The position numbers were made by a program, and so were the translations under genes. A model generated the notes under the pieces. The model saw only the letters and a program-made list of their open reading frames with translations. It was not told the DNA's origin and ran no database searches. Of a DNA stretch of 64,000 bases, positions 35,248-43,855 are shown piece after piece. How positions within the stretch are numbered: the stretch's first letter is position 1; every line of letters starts with the position of its first letter. This stretch comes from Ideonella sp. (GTDB lineage: Bacteria > Pseudomonadota > Gammaproteobacteria > Burkholderiales > Burkholderiaceae_C): assembly GCA_015075545.1 (NCBI GenBank), contig JABTUC010000003.1:248001-312000 (forward strand), written 5' to 3'.

Positions 35248-35566
35248 GACATCCCGGGGACCATCGCGAAGCTCCCCCGCCGTGGTCCGCGAGCGCTACG
35301 CCGCGTAAGCGCGACGCGGTGGTCAGCGCGCTGCTGCGGCGCCTGGCGAGGGGGGAACCAGCGACGCATGGCGGCTCGGCAGCGCGCCGACGGCCGGGCT
35401 GACCCGGTGCGTCGGGCGCAGCACATTCCCCCGAGTTTCTCGGCGACCATACAGGTCGCCGCTCGCGCCGCTCGAACCCGAGTGGCGCGCCGACGGCTAA
35501 CTCAGCGCGTCGTGCGATGCGGCCGCTTTGGCCTATCCTCGGCCCATCTCGGTCGCGGCGCTGCCG
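35248..35566. other. intergenic region, about 320 bp
   Basis: No gene, RNA or clear operator recognised. The right end, TTTGGCCTATCCTC near 35528-35541, has a CCTATC -10-like sequence upstream of the SafE-type gene, similar to the CCTATT before the subunit II gene at 39228. Confidence 0.4.
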
Positions 35567-35578
35567 ATGGTTGGGAAG

Positions 35579-36307
35579 ATGCCGGAGAACGTCACGGTCG
35601 CTTCTGCGTTGCTGGTCGGTCTGCTCGGATCGCCGCACTGCCTGGGCATGTGCGGGGGCATCGTCGGCACGCTGTCGCTGGCCGCCAGCGGCAGCCGGGC
35701 GCGGCAGTGGGGCTTCTTGCTGGCCTACAACCTCGGCCGCATCGCGAGCTATGCCGCCGCCGGCGCGCTGCTCGGCGCGCTCGGCAGCCGTCTGTTCGAC
35801 GCGCTGCCCGGCCCGCTGGGCCGCTGGGGCGCGCATCTGGTGTCGGCGGCGTTCATGATCGCGCTCGGTCTGTATCTGACCGGATGGTGGCGCGGCCTGG
35901 CTGCGCTCGAGCGTGCCGGCGCCCATCTGTGGCGCCGCGTCGAGCCGCTGGCCCGCCGCCTGCTGCCGGTGCGCCACCCGGCGCAGGCCCTGCTCATCGG
36001 TTCGATATGGGGCTTCCTGCCATGCGGTCTGGTCTACACGGCCCTGGCCTGGTCGCTGGCGGCCGGCGATGCGGTCGGCGGCGCGATGCTGATGGCCGCT
36101 TTCGGTGCCGGCACGCTGCCGATGCTGCTGGTCTCCGGCACAGCGTCGCGCGCGCTGGGGGCGGCGACGCGGCAGACCGCGGTGCGGCGGATGTCCGGCG
36201 TGGTCGTGCTCGCGTTCGGCGTGTACTCGCTCGCCGCCGCTGGCCTGCACGCCGGTCACCCCCAAACGAGTGCGGCGGCGAGCCCGGCCATTTCCGCGGA
36301 CGCGTGA
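35579..36307 (+). CDS. sulfite exporter TauE/SafE (DsbD_2-like) membrane protein
   Basis: About 242 residues with six to seven transmembrane helices. The first helix carries LLGSPHCLGMCGGIVG, the metal-ligand-like H-C-x-x-M-C motif common in this family, and WGFLPCGLVYTAL repeats it in the second half. Members encoded beside heme-copper oxidases are suspected of moving copper or reductant; that role is inferred here from the position upstream of a FixL-like kinase and an oxidase-type gene set. Start is ATG 35579, or ATG 35567 four codons earlier. The stop overlaps the kinase start (TGATG). Confidence 0.8.
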   Translation: MPENVTVASALLVGLLGSPHCLGMCGGIVGTLSLAASGSRARQWGFLLAYNLGRIASYAAAGALLGALGSRLFDALPGPLGRWGAHLVSAAFMIALGLYLTGWWRGLAALERAGAHLWRRVEPLARRLLPVRHPAQALLIGSIWGFLPCGLVYTALAWSLAAGDAVGGAMLMAAFGAGTLPMLLVSGTASRALGAATRQTAVRRMSGVVVLAFGVYSLAAAGLHAGHPQTSAAASPAISADA

Positions 36308-37602
36308 TGTTCGGCAACAGCGAAGCCCTGACCCTTGCCGTGGTGATCGGCAGCGGCGCGCTGGCGGCAGCAGTGATCGGCCTCGTGGTTGCGTATGCCC
36401 GGCTTCACGAGGCGGTGCAACGCGTGCGCGACCATGAGTCGCAGCAAGAGGGCATCTCGGCGCGCCTGCGCGAGAACGAGTACCGCCTGCGCGCGATCAT
36501 CGAGTCCGAACCCGAATGCATGAAGCTGCAGGCCGCCAACGGCACGGTGCTGGAGATCAACCCGGCGGGCCTGGCGCTGGTCGAGGCCGACGCCCCGGGC
36601 GACATCATCGGCAAGCCGATCTACCTGCTGGTGGCCCCGGAACACCGCGGCGTCTACCGCGACCACGTGCGCCGCGTGTTCGAAGGCGAGTCGGTCGTCT
36701 ACGAGTTCCGCCTGGTCACCATCAAGGGTCGCAGCCGCTGGATGGAGACGCACGCCGCGCCGCTGCGCGACGCGCAAGGCGGCATCCACGCGCTGTTGGC
36801 GATCACCCGCGACATCACCGAGCGCAAGCTCGCCGAAGAACGCGTGCGCCGTCACCAGATCGAGATCGCGCGGGTGGCGCGGCTGTCGACGATGGGCGAG
36901 ATGGCCGCCGCGCTCGCGCACGAGCTGAACCAGCCGCTGTCGGCGATCGCCGCCTTCGCCCGCGGCTGCACGCGCCGCCTGCGCGCCGGCACCGCGACAC
37001 TGCAAGACCTCGGCGAACCGCTCGATGCGATCGGCGAGCAGGCCGAACGTGCCGGCGAGGTGATCCGCCACGTGCGCGAGTTCGTGCGCCGGCGCGAGCT
37101 GGTCCTCGGCCCGGCCGACGTCAACCAGATCGCGCGCAGCGTCGCGCACTTCGCCGACATCGACGCGCGCCAGCACGAGGCGGTGCTGCGGCTGGAGCTG
37201 GCGCCGCGCCTGCCGCCGGCGGTGGCCGACCCGATCATGGTCGAGCAGGTGATCGGCAACCTGGTGCGCAACGCGATCGACGCGATGACCGAGGCCCGTT
37301 CGCCGCGGCGCGAGATCACGCTGCGCACGGCGCAGCGCGACGGCGCCGTCGAGGTCGAGGTCGCCGACACCGGCCCGGGCATCGACGCGGCGGTAGTGCA
37401 GCAGGTCTTCGAGCCGTTCTTCACGACCAAGCACGACGGTGTCGGCATGGGTCTGTCGATCAGCCGTTCGATCGTCGAGGCGCACGGCGGCCGCATCGGC
37501 GTCGACTCGGTGATCGGGCGCGGGGCAAGCTTCCGCTTCTCGCTTCCGCTGGCCGCGCAGGAGGTCCATCGCGGTGGACAACGCCACGGTCTTCATCGTT
37601 GA
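36307..37602 (+). CDS. PAS-domain sensor histidine kinase (FixL-like)
   Basis: 431 residues. One transmembrane helix (residues about 9-31), a PAS/PAC domain (about 57-174, ending in ITRDITERK), the H box AALAHELNQPLSAI with H205, and an ATPase domain with LVRNAIDAM, DTGPGIDAAV and GVGMGLSISRSIVEAHGG. This is the FixL/DctB-like group. Histidines H113 and H120 in the PAS region could be considered for heme binding as in FixL, but this cannot be decided from sequence alone. It shares its start with the upstream stop and overlaps the regulator gene by 29 bp. Likely senses oxygen, redox state or NO (inference from context). Confidence 0.9.
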   Translation: MFGNSEALTLAVVIGSGALAAAVIGLVVAYARLHEAVQRVRDHESQQEGISARLRENEYRLRAIIESEPECMKLQAANGTVLEINPAGLALVEADAPGDIIGKPIYLLVAPEHRGVYRDHVRRVFEGESVVYEFRLVTIKGRSRWMETHAAPLRDAQGGIHALLAITRDITERKLAEERVRRHQIEIARVARLSTMGEMAAALAHELNQPLSAIAAFARGCTRRLRAGTATLQDLGEPLDAIGEQAERAGEVIRHVREFVRRRELVLGPADVNQIARSVAHFADIDARQHEAVLRLELAPRLPPAVADPIMVEQVIGNLVRNAIDAMTEARSPRREITLRTAQRDGAVEVEVADTGPGIDAAVVQQVFEPFFTTKHDGVGMGLSISRSIVEAHGGRIGVDSVIGRGASFRFSLPLAAQEVHRGGQRHGLHR

Positions 37603-38188
37603 CGACGACCAGGCCGTCGTGCGCAGCCTGCGCTGGCTGATCGAGACGGTGCGCCTGCCGGTGCGGGCCTTTGCCTCGGCACAGGAGTTCCTCGATGGCT
37701 ACGATCCCGCGCGGCCGGGCTGTCTGCTGCTGGACGTGCGCATGCCGGGCATGAGCGGGCTCGAGCTGCAGCAGCGCCTGGCCACGCGCCAGCGCTACCA
37801 CCTGCCGCTGATCTTCGTCACCGGCCACGGCGACGTGCAGATGGCGGTGCGTGCCGTGCAGGCGGGCGCGTTCGATTTCATCGAGAAGCCGTTCAACGAC
37901 CAGGACCTGCTCGACCGCGTGCAGCGCGCGATCGCGCACGACGCGATGCAGCGCGGGCGCGAACAGCAGCGCCAGCAGTTGCGCGATCGCTTCGACGCGC
38001 TGACGGCGCGCGAGCGCGAGGTGCTCGACCTTGTCGTGCAGGGTCAGTCGAACAAGGCGGTGGCCAACGCGCTGGGGCTCAGCGCCAAGACCGTGGAGTT
38101 CCACCGCGCCAAGGTGATGGAGAAGCTGCAGGCGCGCTCGCTGGCCGACCTGGTGAAACTGGCGATGCTCAACACCGGCGAGGGCTGA
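37574..38188 (+). CDS. FixJ-family response regulator
   Basis: 204 residues. Receiver domain with D10-D11-D12, phospho-acceptor D54 (LLLDVRMPGMSGLEL) and K104-P in FIEKPFND. A LuxR-type helix-turn-helix (about 137-200) follows: LTAREREVLDLVVQGQSNKAVANALGLSAKTVEFHRAKVM. Start GTG 37574 lies inside the kinase gene. Output partner of the FixL-like kinase. The palindrome CTAGGA-N4-TCCTAG before the subunit II gene (39190-39205) is a candidate target. Confidence 0.92.
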   Translation: MDNATVFIVDDDQAVVRSLRWLIETVRLPVRAFASAQEFLDGYDPARPGCLLLDVRMPGMSGLELQQRLATRQRYHLPLIFVTGHGDVQMAVRAVQAGAFDFIEKPFNDQDLLDRVQRAIAHDAMQRGREQQRQQLRDRFDALTAREREVLDLVVQGQSNKAVANALGLSAKTVEFHRAKVMEKLQARSLADLVKLAMLNTGEG

Positions 38189-38204: not shown

Positions 38205-39101
38205 TCATCCGCCGAGGTGACGATCCAGCAGCAGCGCGGCGAACAGCGTCGACAGGTAAGTGATCGAGAAGCGGAACGTGCGCTGCGCGTCGGCGTCGCT
38301 GTCGCTGCGCAGCACGCGCCACGCCAGCGCGACGAAGCGCAGGTCGAGCGCCGCGGCGGCTACCAGGTAGACCCAGCCGCTCATGCCCACCGCCAGCGGC
38401 AGCATCGAGGCCACGGCCAACGCGAGCGTGTAGGCGACGATGCAGCGCTGGGTGTGGCGACGCCCACGCACCACCAGCAGCATCGGGAAGCCGGCGGCGG
38501 CGTATTCCCGGGTGCGGTACAGCGCCAGCGACCAGAAGTGCGGCGGCGTCCACAGCAGGATGATCAGGAACAGCACCCAGGCTTGCAGCGGAGCCTCGCC
38601 CGTCACCGCCGCCCAGCCGAGCACGGGCGGCATCGCCCCGGCGGCGCCGCCGATGACGATGTTCTGCGGCGTGCGCGGCTTCAGCAGCACCGTGTAGACG
38701 ACGCTGTAGCCGACGAAGGTGGCCAGCGTCAGCCACATCGTCAACGGGTTCGTCCCACGGTGCAGCAGCAGCAGGCCGACGCCGCCGGCAACGCCCGCCA
38801 CCAGCACGGCCTCGGCCGTCTGCAACTCGCCGCGCGGCAGCGGACGTGCGCAGGTGCGCGCCATCAGCGCGTCGCGCCGGCGCTCGATCAGGCAGTTGAA
38901 CGCCGCCGCGCTGCCGGCCACCAGCGCGATGCCCAGCGTACCGGCTGCCAGCGGCGGCAACGGCACCATCCCGGGCGCGGCCAGGAACATGCCGATCACG
39001 GCGCAGAAGACGATCAACGCCAGCACGCGCGGCTTGGCCAGCCGCAAGTAGGCCCGCAGCCGGGCGCCGACCGACGACATCGCACGGATCGACAATTCCA
39101 C
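38205..39101 (-). CDS. ctaB: heme O synthase (protoheme IX farnesyltransferase)
   Basis: 298 residues, UbiA-superfamily prenyltransferase with about eight to nine transmembrane helices. It attaches a farnesyl chain to heme b to give heme O. The prenyl-diphosphate/Mg motif is AFNCLIERRRDALMARTCARPLP and the second conserved loop is LWTPPHFWSLALYRTREYAAAGFPML. GTG 39101 has GGAGGG 7 nt upstream; ATG 39080 is an alternative. It is divergent from the subunit II gene and converges with the FixJ-like gene. No heme A synthase (ctaA) is nearby, so the adjacent enzyme may use heme o, or ctaA lies elsewhere. Confidence 0.95.
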   Translation of the reverse strand: MELSIRAMSSVGARLRAYLRLAKPRVLALIVFCAVIGMFLAAPGMVPLPPLAAGTLGIALVAGSAAAFNCLIERRRDALMARTCARPLPRGELQTAEAVLVAGVAGGVGLLLLHRGTNPLTMWLTLATFVGYSVVYTVLLKPRTPQNIVIGGAAGAMPPVLGWAAVTGEAPLQAWVLFLIILLWTPPHFWSLALYRTREYAAAGFPMLLVVRGRRHTQRCIVAYTLALAVASMLPLAVGMSGWVYLVAAAALDLRFVALAWRVLRSDSDADAQRTFRFSITYLSTLFAALLLDRHLGG

Positions 39102-39189: not shown

Positions 39190-39205
39190 CTAGGAACCAT
39201 CCTAG
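39190..39205. promoter_or_regulatory. palindromic operator CTAGGAACCATCCTAG before oxidase-type genes
   Basis: CTAGGA-ACCA-TCCTAG, a 6+6 bp perfect inverted repeat that abuts a TTGCCG -35-like sequence (39206-39211). An 18-bp spacer and TATTCT (39230-39235) follow, with ATG at 39294. The repeat would be centred near -44, an activator position. Candidate site for the FixJ-like regulator or another activator. Confidence 0.5.
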
Positions 39206-39293: not shown

Positions 39294-39857
39294 ATGCTCG
39301 ACTTCCTGTTCAGCGGCTGGGGCGCGTTCTGGATGACGCTGTTCATGCTGGTGCCGTTCGCCGCGGTCTTCTACTACGTCATCTGGCGCAAGAGCGTGGT
39401 CGACCCGAGCCCCGAGGCCACCGCCCGCTCGAAGATCTCGCGGGTCGAGGTTGGCTGGCTCGCGCTGGTGCTGGTGGTCTTCGTGGGCGTCAACCTCGCG
39501 AGCCTGAAGTACATGCCGACGTTGAAGTCCGCGCACGCTGCGACCACGCGCACCGACATCCAGAATGTCGACTTGACTGCCACGTCATGGTCATACGACA
39601 TGTCGAGTCGGCGCATCGAGGTCGGTCGGCCGGTGCGCTTCTCGGGCCGCAGCGGCGACACGATGCACGGCTTCGCGGTCTACCACCCCGATGGCCGCGT
39701 GCTCTTCACGATGATGCTGATGCCCGGATTGAGCAAGCCGACCTCGCTGATCCACACCTTCAGCGAGCCTGGGAAATACAAGGTGCGCTGCCTGGAGTAC
39801 TGCGGCGTCGCCCACCACGCGATGCGCGACGAGATCGTCGTCGTTGCCGCCAGCTGA
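39294..39857 (+). CDS. heme-copper oxidoreductase subunit II with CuA site (NorS/CoxB-like)
   Basis: 187 residues. Two transmembrane helices (about 10-31 and 54-72) precede a cupredoxin domain. All CuA ligands are present: H125 (DTMHGF), then C166, E168 (carbonyl), C170, H174 and M177 in CLEYCGVAHHAM. It should accept electrons from cytochrome c or another periplasmic donor and pass them to subunit I encoded 32 bp downstream. The short length and small cupredoxin domain fit alternative oxidases and the sNOR type (NorS) better than an aa3 subunit II, which is about 250-350 residues. ATG 39294 is preceded by GAGGAGG. Confidence 0.88.
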   Translation: MLDFLFSGWGAFWMTLFMLVPFAAVFYYVIWRKSVVDPSPEATARSKISRVEVGWLALVLVVFVGVNLASLKYMPTLKSAHAATTRTDIQNVDLTATSWSYDMSSRRIEVGRPVRFSGRSGDTMHGFAVYHPDGRVLFTMMLMPGLSKPTSLIHTFSEPGKYKVRCLEYCGVAHHAMRDEIVVVAAS

Positions 39858-39889: not shown

Positions 39890-41422
39890 ATGACCATCGC
39901 CAGCACGCTCGTCGAGCGCACGCCGCTGTTCGGCAGGATGTTCGCCGTCGACAAGTCCACCGGCCTGGAGGAGATCAACGCCTGGCCGGCGCTGATGATC
40001 ATGGCCTCGTTCGTCTGGCTCGCGGTGGCCGGGCTGCTCGGCCTGGTGATGCCGGCGACGCAGCTGTTCGATCTCAGCAGCGATCTCTTCTATACGACGC
40101 TGACGCTGCACGGCGCAGCGCTGGCGTTCCCGTTCACCTTCCAGCTGATGATCGGCGTCGGCCTGCACCGCGCCGCCGGCTGCGTGGGCAAGCCGGTCAC
40201 CGGCTGGTTGCCGGCGCTGGCCTTCACCGCGCTGAACCTCGGCTCGGCCTTGCTGACCGTCGCCGTGCTGCTCGGTTTCAAGGTCAGCCTGGTGGTGATG
40301 TACCCGCTGCCGCTGGTCGGCGCGAAGATGGGCATCTGGAGCATGGGCACCGTCGTGCTCGGCTTCACCGGCATCTACCTGGTGCTGGCGACGATGATCC
40401 TCTTCTATCCCATCCTCGTGCTGCGCATGCTGTTCTTCGGGCGCAAGCGCCCCGAACTGGTGCTCTCGCCGCGCTCGCTGAACGACCCCGGCATGCTCGG
40501 CATGACGCTGGCGGCGCTGACGCTGCTGATCGCCGGCATGCCGCTGGTGGTGGTGGGCACGACGCTGCTGGCCGCGCTTTACGGCGTGATCCCGATGCCG
40601 ATGGCCGCCTGGGCCGCCGAGCCGGTGGTGTTCCAGTACTCGTTCTTCATCTTCGCGCACAACCTGATGGAGGCGATGGCGCTGATGGTGATAAGCGCGA
40701 TGTACGCCACGTTGCCGCTGTACCTGGCCGACGGCACGCGCAAGCTGTACAGCGACCGCATCGCCAACGCGGCGTTGTGGATCCTGCTGCTGACCTCGAT
40801 CACCTCGTTCCTGCACCACTTCATCACGCTGTATCCCAACCAGCCGGCGGCGCTCTCGTACTGGGGCAACATCATGAGCTGGGGCACCGGCATCGGCTCG
40901 GCCTTGAGCATCTTCACGGTGCTGGCCACCGTGTGGCAGCACGGCCTGCGCCCCGAGCCGGGGATCAACGCCGTGCTCGCCGGCTTCGTGCTCTACATCC
41001 TCGACGGCGCCAGCGCGGTCGTGACCTCCAACGTCGCCTGGTCGTTCCAGCTCCACGGCACGATGTGGCAGAGCGGACACACGATGACGGTGCTCGTGGC
41101 GATGGCGATGATGTGGCTCGGCGTGCTGTACCACCACTACCCCGTGATCACCGGGCGCAGGCCTGATCAGAATCTCGCCAGATGGGCGGTGCGGCTGTTC
41201 ACCGTCGGCGCCGTCGGCGCCGCACTGTCCATGCTCGCCGGCGGCGCGGCCGGCATGCCGCGCCGCTTTGCCGACTGGAACCAGGAGGGCTGGATCCTGT
41301 ACGGTCAGCTGATCCTTGTCTTCGGGCTCGTTCTCGGCGCGTCGTTGGCCGTCTATGCGTATACCCTGCTGCGCGCCCGCGCGATCGGCGAGGCGATCCG
41401 GCCGCAAGCGGTGCCCGCCTGA
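39890..41422 (+). CDS. heme-copper oxidoreductase subunit I, NO-reductase-like active site (NorY-like)
   Basis: 510 residues, about 12-13 transmembrane helices. H74 (TLHGAALAF) is the helix II low-spin heme ligand. The metal B ligands are H257 and the pair H309-H310. H397 matches the high-spin heme ligand, with H389 eight residues before it as in aa3 oxidases. Two deviations stand out. The helix VI H-x3-Y of oxidases is H257-N-L-M-E261, as in NO reductases. The second low-spin ligand (usual H-x-H) is H397-T-M399. No tyrosine is at the cbb3-type position either (S303). It is therefore probably an NO reductase of the sNOR type or an unnamed relative, although automated names would be cytochrome c or cbb3 oxidase subunit I. 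GAGG precedes ATG 39890. Confidence 0.85.
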   Translation: MTIASTLVERTPLFGRMFAVDKSTGLEEINAWPALMIMASFVWLAVAGLLGLVMPATQLFDLSSDLFYTTLTLHGAALAFPFTFQLMIGVGLHRAAGCVGKPVTGWLPALAFTALNLGSALLTVAVLLGFKVSLVVMYPLPLVGAKMGIWSMGTVVLGFTGIYLVLATMILFYPILVLRMLFFGRKRPELVLSPRSLNDPGMLGMTLAALTLLIAGMPLVVVGTTLLAALYGVIPMPMAAWAAEPVVFQYSFFIFAHNLMEAMALMVISAMYATLPLYLADGTRKLYSDRIANAALWILLLTSITSFLHHFITLYPNQPAALSYWGNIMSWGTGIGSALSIFTVLATVWQHGLRPEPGINAVLAGFVLYILDGASAVVTSNVAWSFQLHGTMWQSGHTMTVLVAMAMMWLGVLYHHYPVITGRRPDQNLARWAVRLFTVGAVGAALSMLAGGAAGMPRRFADWNQEGWILYGQLILVFGLVLGASLAVYAYTLLRARAIGEAIRPQAVPA

Positions 41423-41491: not shown

Positions 41492-43855
41492 ATGAGTTGT
41501 GCGCTGTGCGGCCTGCCCACGCCGCAGCCGCCGGTGCAGGCCAACGGGCGCGACTACTGCTGCACCGGCTGCAGCGAGGTGGCGCGCCTGCTGGGCACGA
41601 TGTCGGAGCCCGAGGTCGCTGCCGCAGCGACCGTCGAGGCGCGCGACGACCCGGCGGTGCAAGGGCAGGAGGCGTACTTCCACGTCGACGGCATGCACTG
41701 CGCGTCGTGCGAGCGCCTGATCTCGCTCGTCGCGTCGCGGGTCGACGGCGTGCTCGCGGTGCACGCGAGCTACGCCACCGCCACGGCGAAAGTCGTCTTC
41801 GACCCCGAGCGCATCGACGCGGCGGGCCTGGGCAGGCGCCTGAGCGCAGCCGGCTATCGCTTTCGCCCGCGCGGCGAGGCCGCCCCGGAGTACGACGAGC
41901 GCGCCGATCTGCTGCGCATGTTGGCCGGCGGCTGCTTGGCGTCGGCGGTGATGATGCTGTCGTTCGTTTTCGTCTACCCGCTGCACGCCGGCTGGGTCGA
42001 GGCGCAGGACTACGCGGCGATCGGCTGGCTCGCTTTCGAGCTGGCGCCCAATGCGCTGTTCGTGCTGACGACGGTGCAGGTCGGCTACGTCGGCTGGCCG
42101 ATCCTGCGCGGCGCGGCCACGGCCTTGCGGGTTCGCGGCCTCAACATGGACGTGCTGCTGGCTCTGGCGATCGCCTCGGCCTATGCGTACAGCGTGTTCC
42201 AGCTCCGGCACGACCCGCTCGATCTGTACTTCGACGTCGCCGCCGGCGTCGTCGCCGTCGTCACGATCGGCCGCTTCCTCGAACGCGGCGCGCGCGAGGC
42301 GGCGCTGCGGGAGATCGGCCGCTTCCTGAACGCGGTGCCGGCACGCGCCTGCGTCGTGCGCGGCGGCGATTGCTTCTTCTGCGACGCCGACGAACTGATG
42401 CCCGGCGATCGCGTCGTCGTTCGCGAGGGCCAGGCGATTCCGGCCGACGGCACCATCACCGACGGTGCCGGCGCGGTCGACGAGTCGCTGCTGACCGGCG
42501 AGCCGTTTCCCGCCGAGCGCCAGCGCGGCGATCGGGTGCTGGGCGGCGCCGTCTTGCGCGAGGGTCACATCGAGGTCGACGTCGGCGACCAAGTCCGCAG
42601 CCGGATGGCCGACCTGGCGAAGCTGCTGTGGAACGCGCAGGCGCGCACCGGCGCAGCCCCAGGGCGCGCCGACCGCATGGCGCGCGTGTTCGTTCCGCTC
42701 GTGCTCGTGCTCGCGGCGCTCGTCGGCGCCGCCTTCGTCGTCGCCGGCTCGAGCCCGCAGCGCGCGCTGCTGGCCGCGCTGGCCACGCTGATCGTGTCGT
42801 GCCCGTGCACGTTCGGGCTGGCGATACCGTTGACGATTGCCAGCGCGACGAGCGCCGCGCTGCGGCGCGGCATCCTCGTCACGCGACCCGAGTTGTTCGA
42901 GCAGGGCACGCGCGTCGACATTGTCGCCCTCGACAAGACCGGCACCCTGTCCAGCGGCGAGATGTCGGTGTGCAGCATCGTCGGGCCGCCCGAGGTGGCG
43001 AGCCTGGCAGCGGCGGTCGAGCGCGATTCGCCGCACCCGGTGGCGCGAGCCATTGCACGGCTCGACCGCCGCAGCCACGCGCGCGACGTGCAGATCCGCG
43101 CCGGCCGCGGCGCCTGCGGCACCGTGGGCAACCGGCGCGTGGCTGTCGGCAGCCAGGCGCTGTTCGACGCGCTGGCCTGGCCCGTGCCGGGCGCGCTCGC
43201 AGCGCAGCTTGCCGCAACGGCCGCCGATGCAGGGGTCGTCTCCTATGTCGGCTGGGACGGCGTGGTACGCGGCGGCATCGTCACCCGCGACCAGCCGCGG
43301 CCGCGATGGGAGTCGGTCGTCGAGCGGCTGCGAAGGCGCCGCAGCGCCGTCCTGTTGACCGGCGCGGCGAGCGCCGAGGCCTACGCGGCGCGCTTCGACG
43401 AAGCGTTCGCCGGCGTGCCGCCGGAGGCCAAGGCCGCCGTGGTCAGACAACTGCGCAGGCGCGGCCGCGTGGCGATGGTCGGCGATGGCAGCAACGATGC
43501 CCCCGCCTTGGCCGAGGCCGACCTGCCCATCGCCTTCGGCACGCCCACCGCGCTGGCCGCGCAGGCCGCAGCGATCGTCGTCGCCGGCGACCGGCTCGAC
43601 CGCGTCGCCGACGCGCTCGACATCGTCGACGCGGCGCGGCACCGCGTGCGCCAGAACCTCGTGTGGGCGCTGTCGTACAACGCGATCGCGGTACCGCTGG
43701 CGATGAGCGGCCTGCTCAACCCGCTGGCTGCCGCGCTGGCGATGGTCGTCAGCAGCCTGATCGTGGTCTGGAACGCAACGCGTCCGCTGCCGCTCGATCC
43801 GGGCAACTCCGTCGACGAGGCCGTTTCCGCGCAGCGCGACGCCTGGGCGGCGTGA
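41492..43855 (+). CDS. heavy-metal P-type ATPase (CcoI/FixI-like copper transporter)
   Basis: 787 residues. An N-terminal cysteine-rich metal domain (C3, C6, C23-C24, C27) is followed by an HMA domain with GMHCASC (C70, C73), then eight predicted transmembrane helices with the ion-binding SCPCTFG (C437-P-C439). The phosphorylation site is D481 in ALDKTGTLSSGE, and the hinge is MVGDGSNDAPALAEADLPIAFG. This is a P1B-type copper exporter of the CcoI/FixI/CtpA group, which supplies copper to periplasm-facing sites of heme-copper enzymes. It follows subunit I by 69 bp, consistent with copper delivery to the CuA or metal B site. Confidence 0.92.
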   Translation: MSCALCGLPTPQPPVQANGRDYCCTGCSEVARLLGTMSEPEVAAAATVEARDDPAVQGQEAYFHVDGMHCASCERLISLVASRVDGVLAVHASYATATAKVVFDPERIDAAGLGRRLSAAGYRFRPRGEAAPEYDERADLLRMLAGGCLASAVMMLSFVFVYPLHAGWVEAQDYAAIGWLAFELAPNALFVLTTVQVGYVGWPILRGAATALRVRGLNMDVLLALAIASAYAYSVFQLRHDPLDLYFDVAAGVVAVVTIGRFLERGAREAALREIGRFLNAVPARACVVRGGDCFFCDADELMPGDRVVVREGQAIPADGTITDGAGAVDESLLTGEPFPAERQRGDRVLGGAVLREGHIEVDVGDQVRSRMADLAKLLWNAQARTGAAPGRADRMARVFVPLVLVLAALVGAAFVVAGSSPQRALLAALATLIVSCPCTFGLAIPLTIASATSAALRRGILVTRPELFEQGTRVDIVALDKTGTLSSGEMSVCSIVGPPEVASLAAAVERDSPHPVARAIARLDRRSHARDVQIRAGRGACGTVGNRRVAVGSQALFDALAWPVPGALAAQLAATAADAGVVSYVGWDGVVRGGIVTRDQPRPRWESVVERLRRRRSAVLLTGAASAEAYAARFDEAFAGVPPEAKAAVVRQLRRRGRVAMVGDGSNDAPALAEADLPIAFGTPTALAAQAAAIVVAGDRLDRVADALDIVDAARHRVRQNLVWALSYNAIAVPLAMSGLLNPLAAALAMVVSSLIVVWNATRPLPLDPGNSVDEAVSAQRDAWAA

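Follow-up and report, generated by a model that had tools for sequence, protein, structure and literature searches.

The window analyzed here, a 64,000-nucleotide stretch of contig JABTUC010000003.1 from Ideonella sp., contains an intact gene pair for subunits I and II of a member of the heme-copper superfamily (HCO). Subunit I, a protein of 510 residues, is encoded on the plus strand at 39890–41422. Subunit II (187 residues; 39294–39857, plus strand) was described as CuA-bearing in an earlier, sequence-only reading of this DNA, and its CuA ligand set, consisting of H125 (codon at 39666) and the motif C-LEY-C-GVA-H-HA-M at 39789–39824, is complete in the window and in 42/42 family loci (L009–L050).

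The window's neighboring genes were sought in the 36 loci of a genome scan described below, several of which are truncated by contig ends. A gene for heme O synthase (CtaB/CyoE; 38205–39101, minus strand; TIGR01473, 306.7 bits versus a cut-off of 210) is divergent from the operon and recurs in 26/36 loci. A P1B heavy-metal ATPase of the copper type (41492–43855, plus strand), which presumably supplies copper, recurs in 28/36. It scores above the cut-off of TIGR01525 and, at 388 bits, slightly below the cut-off of 397 for the copper-specific TIGR01511. A FixL-like PAS sensor kinase (36307–37602, plus strand; 23/36 loci) is followed by a FixJ-like response regulator (37574–38188, plus strand; 24/36 loci) that scores 229.6 bits against PRK09390 FixJ, below the cut-off of 255. 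A DsbD_2-type membrane protein (35528–36307, plus strand; PF13386, 189 bits; 8/36 loci) is a possible assembly factor, and SCO1/SenC-type proteins are found beside some family loci. No nir, nor, or nos genes were identified among the flanking families examined. The divergent promoter region between the heme O synthase and subunit II genes contains an inverted repeat, CTAGGAACCATCCTAG (CTAGGA-N4-TCCTAG), at 39190–39205. This repeat or a related motif occurs upstream of subunit II in 11/30 loci, and an FNR/NNR-like box occurs in just 2/30 upstream regions. The repeat is a candidate operator that may be bound by the FixJ-like regulator, and the adjacent FixLJ-like pair would control the operon.

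Relatives of subunit I are 62–93% identical to the window's protein and are rare. Whole-genome protein searches found the family in 3/6 genomes of the genus and 2/250 of the taxonomic family (E ≤ 1e-60 for the latter), and in 5/369 genomes of the class and 1/398 of the phylum (E ≤ 1e-35), with the window's own genome included in every count. When the family alignment was used to scan a collection of genomes from 84,980 species by two short peptide patterns, which distant relatives may escape, 37 loci were returned. One of these (L051) has the HPEVY motif of an ordinary oxidase and was excluded. Of the 36 true relatives, 35 come from MAG records and one from the complete genome of Candidatus Desulfobacillus denitrificans, and all carry Pseudomonadota names (Burkholderiales, Rhodocyclales [Sulfuritalea], some Hyphomicrobiales, Rhodospirillaceae, Magnetovibrio, and Gammaproteobacteria). 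A search of plasmids for the family gave four records with weak matches to oxidases. Because the same genomes were apparently reached twice (L014/L015, L009/L016, and L013/L041, at identical places) and two loci (L038/L049) share one MAG, the 43 aligned rows derive from 39 distinct genomes. The occurrence of the same gene in 39 distinct genomes led us to reject a frame or assembly artefact. The dN/dS values of subunit I against two close relatives are 0.10 and 0.13, and purifying selection acts on the protein.

A codon-by-codon check of 39890–41422 found every subunit I residue named in the sequence-only reading at its assigned number. These are H74 in helix II (codon at 40109); H257 (40658), N258 (40661), and E261 (40670), which form the H257-x3-E261 motif of helix VI; S303 (40796), H309 (40814), and H310 (40817) in helix VII; H389 (41054); and H397 (41078), T398 (41081), and M399 (41084), which form the H397-x-M399 motif of helix X. 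The spacing of eight residues between H389 and H397 is likewise as described. H74 is kept in 43/43 aligned family rows, and among the rows covering the respective sites, H257, N258, E261, S303, H309, and H310 are kept in 42/42 and H389, H397, and M399 in 41/41. Residue 398 is variable (T in 32, F in 5, A in 2, and V in 2 of the 41 rows). Five of the six heme and metal histidines of the superfamily are therefore present, and the sixth, the low-spin heme His of helix X, is replaced by Met in every family row that reaches it, as had been proposed from the single sequence.

A shifted register in helix X that would supply a second His was named in that reading as a refutation. The alignment with A-family, sNOR-like, and eNOR sequences is gapless in this region, with T391, G396, and H397 common to the eNOR and sNOR-like sequences, and a shift was rejected. 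H397 aligns to the high-spin heme His and M399 to the second His of the HxH motif. The same register was obtained with phmmer against the Thermus thermophilus caa3 oxidase (2yev), which is the best PDB sequence match to subunit I (E 3e-6). The proposal of an NO reductase-type active site also holds across the family, with Glu (E261) in place of the cross-linked Tyr. A C-type (cbb3) Tyr in helix VII was rejected, again in agreement with the earlier reading, because that position is S303 in 42/42 rows.

To place these substitutions in the superfamily, other PF00115 proteins from the genomes that carry the family (carriers) and from a Pseudomonadota sample were aligned and read at the six His positions; this set omits some partial and many A-type and cbb3-type matches, and a few of its rows duplicate one gene. 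Position 399 is His in 193/193 non-family HCO rows that cover the site, and the 194th row is a fragment ending short. The 193 rows comprise 74 A, 23 C, 9 cNOR, 9 qNOR-type, 29 eNOR, 12 Asn-type sNOR-like, and 2 unclassed sequences and a divergent HCO-like group of 35, with the sNOR, eNOR, cNOR, and qNOR sets assigned by motif alone. Glu at H+4 of helix VI is also found in the 9 cNOR and 9 qNOR-type rows, and the family shares with them the H-x3-E motif and the same predicted His3-Glu metal site. Unlike the family, cNOR and qNOR have HxH in helix X; they also have no CuA subunit. Like the family, eNOR has a CuA subunit II and is an NO reductase of denitrifiers; it differs in having Gln at the Tyr site (GHSSQQ) and HxH. 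Table A4 of PMC8756737 lists the Tyr-site residue as Tyr in oxygen reductases, Glu in cNOR and qNOR, Asn in sNOR and CuANor, Gln in eNOR, and Asp in gNOR. With Glu in every row, the family has neither the Asn of sNOR, the Gln of eNOR, nor the Asp of gNOR, and its combination of Glu with a CuA subunit II matches no row of that table.

Profile comparison with hhalign scored the family highest against the sNOR (99.4%, E 7e-22) and A (99.4%, E 1.6e-21) sets, followed by eNOR (91.5%), C (66.5%), HCO-like (63.6%), cNOR (63.0%), and qNOR (0.4%). FastTree with 127 sequences groups the family with sNOR at 0.82. IQ-TREE with 82 sequences places it as sister to sNOR (aLRT 88) on the A/B side of the superfamily (aLRT 99.3), with sisterhood to A or to eNOR/B not rejected (AU 0.35 and 0.38). 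A second sampling of 76 sequences gave a fast unconstrained tree in which the family lies beside eNOR at just 38.8 and its A/B-side position has 97.9, and the sNOR-constrained tree beats this tree by 2.4 log units. Union with cNOR/qNOR was rejected in the 82-sequence test (AU 0.013, from 5000 resamplings, too few according to the program) and was not rejected in the second sampling (AU 0.138), nor was A, eNOR, or eNOR/B sisterhood. The family forms a separate clade on a long branch of 1.4–1.6 substitutions per site. These data suggest that the family is probably nearest sNOR, on the A/B side, and, as a separate branch there, that it probably gained its Glu apart from cNOR and qNOR.

Subunit I scores 141 bits against Pfam PF00115 (COX1), and its matches in NCBIfam all fall far below the cut-offs (CtaD, 77.7 bits versus 671). 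An AlphaFold model built from an alignment of 29 family members has 12 long helices, a pLDDT of 81.7, and a pTM of 0.84. The pLDDT is below 50 at residues 135–138, 384–389, and 504–510, of which 384–389 directly precedes helix X. Foldseek against the PDB returns A-family (aa3) oxidases at the top, with a TM score of about 0.77. PF00115, AlphaFold, and Foldseek thus agree on the 12-helix COX1 fold of the HCO superfamily. In addition to fold and profile level, the family shares the GMPRR motif with the A-family, but it has none of the A-family's Tyr, D- and K-channel residues, or HxH. Because it lacks the helix VIII Lys, the E286 equivalent, and the D132 region of A-family pumps, the enzyme is probably non-pumping.

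The carriers are strongly linked to the heme-d1 (NirS) family. A match to this protein family, which takes in NirS, NirF, and NirN, is present in 35/39 carrier genomes (E ≤ 1e-60), and the remaining 4/39 are without a strong match. The corresponding count in the class sample is 67/339, or 62/334 with the five carriers known from the class search removed; Fisher's test of 35/39 against 62/334 gives p = 6e-19, a value that ignores kinship and compares two differently sampled sets. NosZ-like matches of at least 400 bits are present in 22/39 carriers and absent from 17/39, and NirK scores above its cut-off in 1/39. Frames of 584–613 residues in three genomes (G991:C62:15495–16490, G1011:C57:51153–52145, and G1018:C350:9369–10373) match the NosZ model in its C-terminal half at just 120–137 bits and are perhaps lactonase-type clade III NosZ.

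Other NO reductases are common in the same genomes. Because some other NOR-type HCO is found in 32/39 carriers (in one of the 32, the H-N qNOR type described below alone), the link to denitrifiers may be owed to these other genes. Moreover, eNOR is present in 29/39, so the carriers may not depend on the family enzyme. The window's own genome has an eNOR gene (contig C6, 421885–423174) near heme-d1 genes (C6, 430641–438611), and the family gene is on contig C7. Five carriers (G456, G995, G996, G1015, and G1022) combine a strong heme-d1 match with the lack of any further classed NOR. We give them no weight because they are draft genomes with some matches unfetched and because G995 has an unclassed partial HCO.

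A published case is Ca. D. denitrificans. PMC8402940 reports that this organism expresses nirS, and nosZ more strongly still, and that it lacks norBC and norVW, which is termed unexpected there. Its complete genome (L034; AP021857.1) has the family gene at 2644017–2645348 and an eNOR-type gene at 916993–918285, the latter 10–25 kb from heme-d1 genes. We therefore rejected the family enzyme as the sole filler of the missing NO reductase step. The missing reductase could be either the family enzyme or eNOR, and eNOR is the likelier of the two.

Three further kinds of HCO-like protein were seen in the comparison set. The divergent HCO-like group comprises L006 (G000:C6:427496–428707), encoded near eNOR and heme-d1 genes, and 34 further rows. 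These proteins keep the heme His of helices II and X and are missing the CuB His-His, with no HH of any kind in 34/35 rows. They occur in at least 27/39 carriers and may be heme-only partners of eNOR. His-Asn replaces His-His at the FeB position in 7/9 qNOR-type rows from six carrier genomes (L165, L166, L132/L201 [one gene], L202, L209, and L210); His-Asn at this position marks NO dismutases. Five sequences with Asn at the Tyr site (L162, L204, L206, L208, and L211) have helix VI motifs (GHT-[LI]-VN and MHNFTN) unlike those of the main sNOR-like group and may represent other NOR subfamilies.

On balance, and with moderate confidence, we favor the view that the family is a CuA-containing NO reductase that takes electrons from a c-type carrier, has a His3-Glu site like that of cNOR, and ligates its low-spin heme through His74 and Met399. 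This assignment draws together the invariance of E261, M399, and the CuA ligands, the heme-d1 association, the assembly-gene neighbors, and the A-like fold. In the proposed mechanism, a c-type electron carrier would pass electrons to CuA of subunit II. CuA would reduce a low-spin heme held, according to the alignment, by H74 and M399, and this heme would in turn deliver electrons to a binuclear site, where a high-spin heme ligated by H397 is paired with a non-heme metal. The predicted ligands of that metal are E261 and the three His residues H257, H309, and H310, an arrangement like that of cNOR, whose non-heme metal is iron. Two molecules of NO would be converted to N2O at this site. Four points in this scheme are inferred: the His/Met ligation, the presence of iron and not copper as the second metal, the type of heme, and NO as the substrate. 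A Met ligand is expected to raise the potential of a heme.

The Met ligation itself is a prediction from the alignment, and an NO reductase can be envisioned in which M399 does not bind iron and the second heme is five-coordinate, otherwise ligated, or lost. We consider this unlikely. M399 is invariant next to the variable residue 398, its partner H74 is invariant as well, no other invariant His or Cys is near 399 in helix X, and a CuA center upstream requires a relay heme. It is also rather improbable that the enzyme serves as a terminal oxidase, or reduces both O2 and NO, at low O2 under FixLJ-like control. The adjoining FixLJ-like regulators and heme O synthase and the A-like fold are consistent with such a role, and an oxidase role is argued for sNOR in PMC6967387. 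However, neither known position of the cross-linked Tyr has Tyr (E261 and S303, each in 42/42 rows), and the carriers are denitrifiers in which ordinary A-type or cbb3-type oxidases are already found, in the cases seen.

The sequence-only reading had assigned the enzyme to sNOR (NorSY-like), and we now regard this identity as very doubtful. The CuA subunit II and the A/B-side subunit I are shared, sNOR is the closest profile, although level with the A-family, and placement beside sNOR has the top likelihood in both samplings. Nonetheless, 12/12 Asn-type sequences keep HxH, whereas Glu and HxM are constant in the family, which sits on a separate long branch for which A, eNOR, and eNOR/B sisterhood are not rejected. 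Least probable of all is a different kind of respiratory HCO, for example a sensing enzyme or one resembling an NO dismutase, which would suit the putative status of NO as substrate and the usual presence of another NOR in carriers, but CuA and the assembly genes indicate an electron-accepting reductase.

The family, proposed here to be a CuA NO reductase, is possibly the same clade as nNOR. The nNOR clade was reportedly defined by Murali et al. (PNAS 2024). Mentions of it in PMC11388526, PMC12569097, PMC10359470, and PMC11707229 name no residues. In the literature searched, nothing relevant was found on a Met or otherwise non-bis-His low-spin heme in an HCO. The classifier of PMC3084760 admits sequences to the superfamily if they have all six His and discards those missing any, so a protein like that of the family would drop out of its survey. 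Unless it is nNOR, we tentatively suggest that this could be an unnamed HCO family of NirS-type denitrifying Pseudomonadota, with a His3-Glu site acquired separately from cNOR/qNOR and the first His/Met low-spin heme of the superfamily. Its product would then be an NO reductase with a tuned redox potential that surveys filtering for six His overlook.

The invariant loss of one of the six His would be a real surprise for the superfamily. The family lends itself to testing which factors determine the potential of the low-spin heme and how the scaffold of an oxidase can turn into that of an NO reductase. Inventories based on norBC only, moreover, overlook candidate N2O producers, an example being Ca. 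D. denitrificans, which PMC8402940 reports to lack NO reductase.
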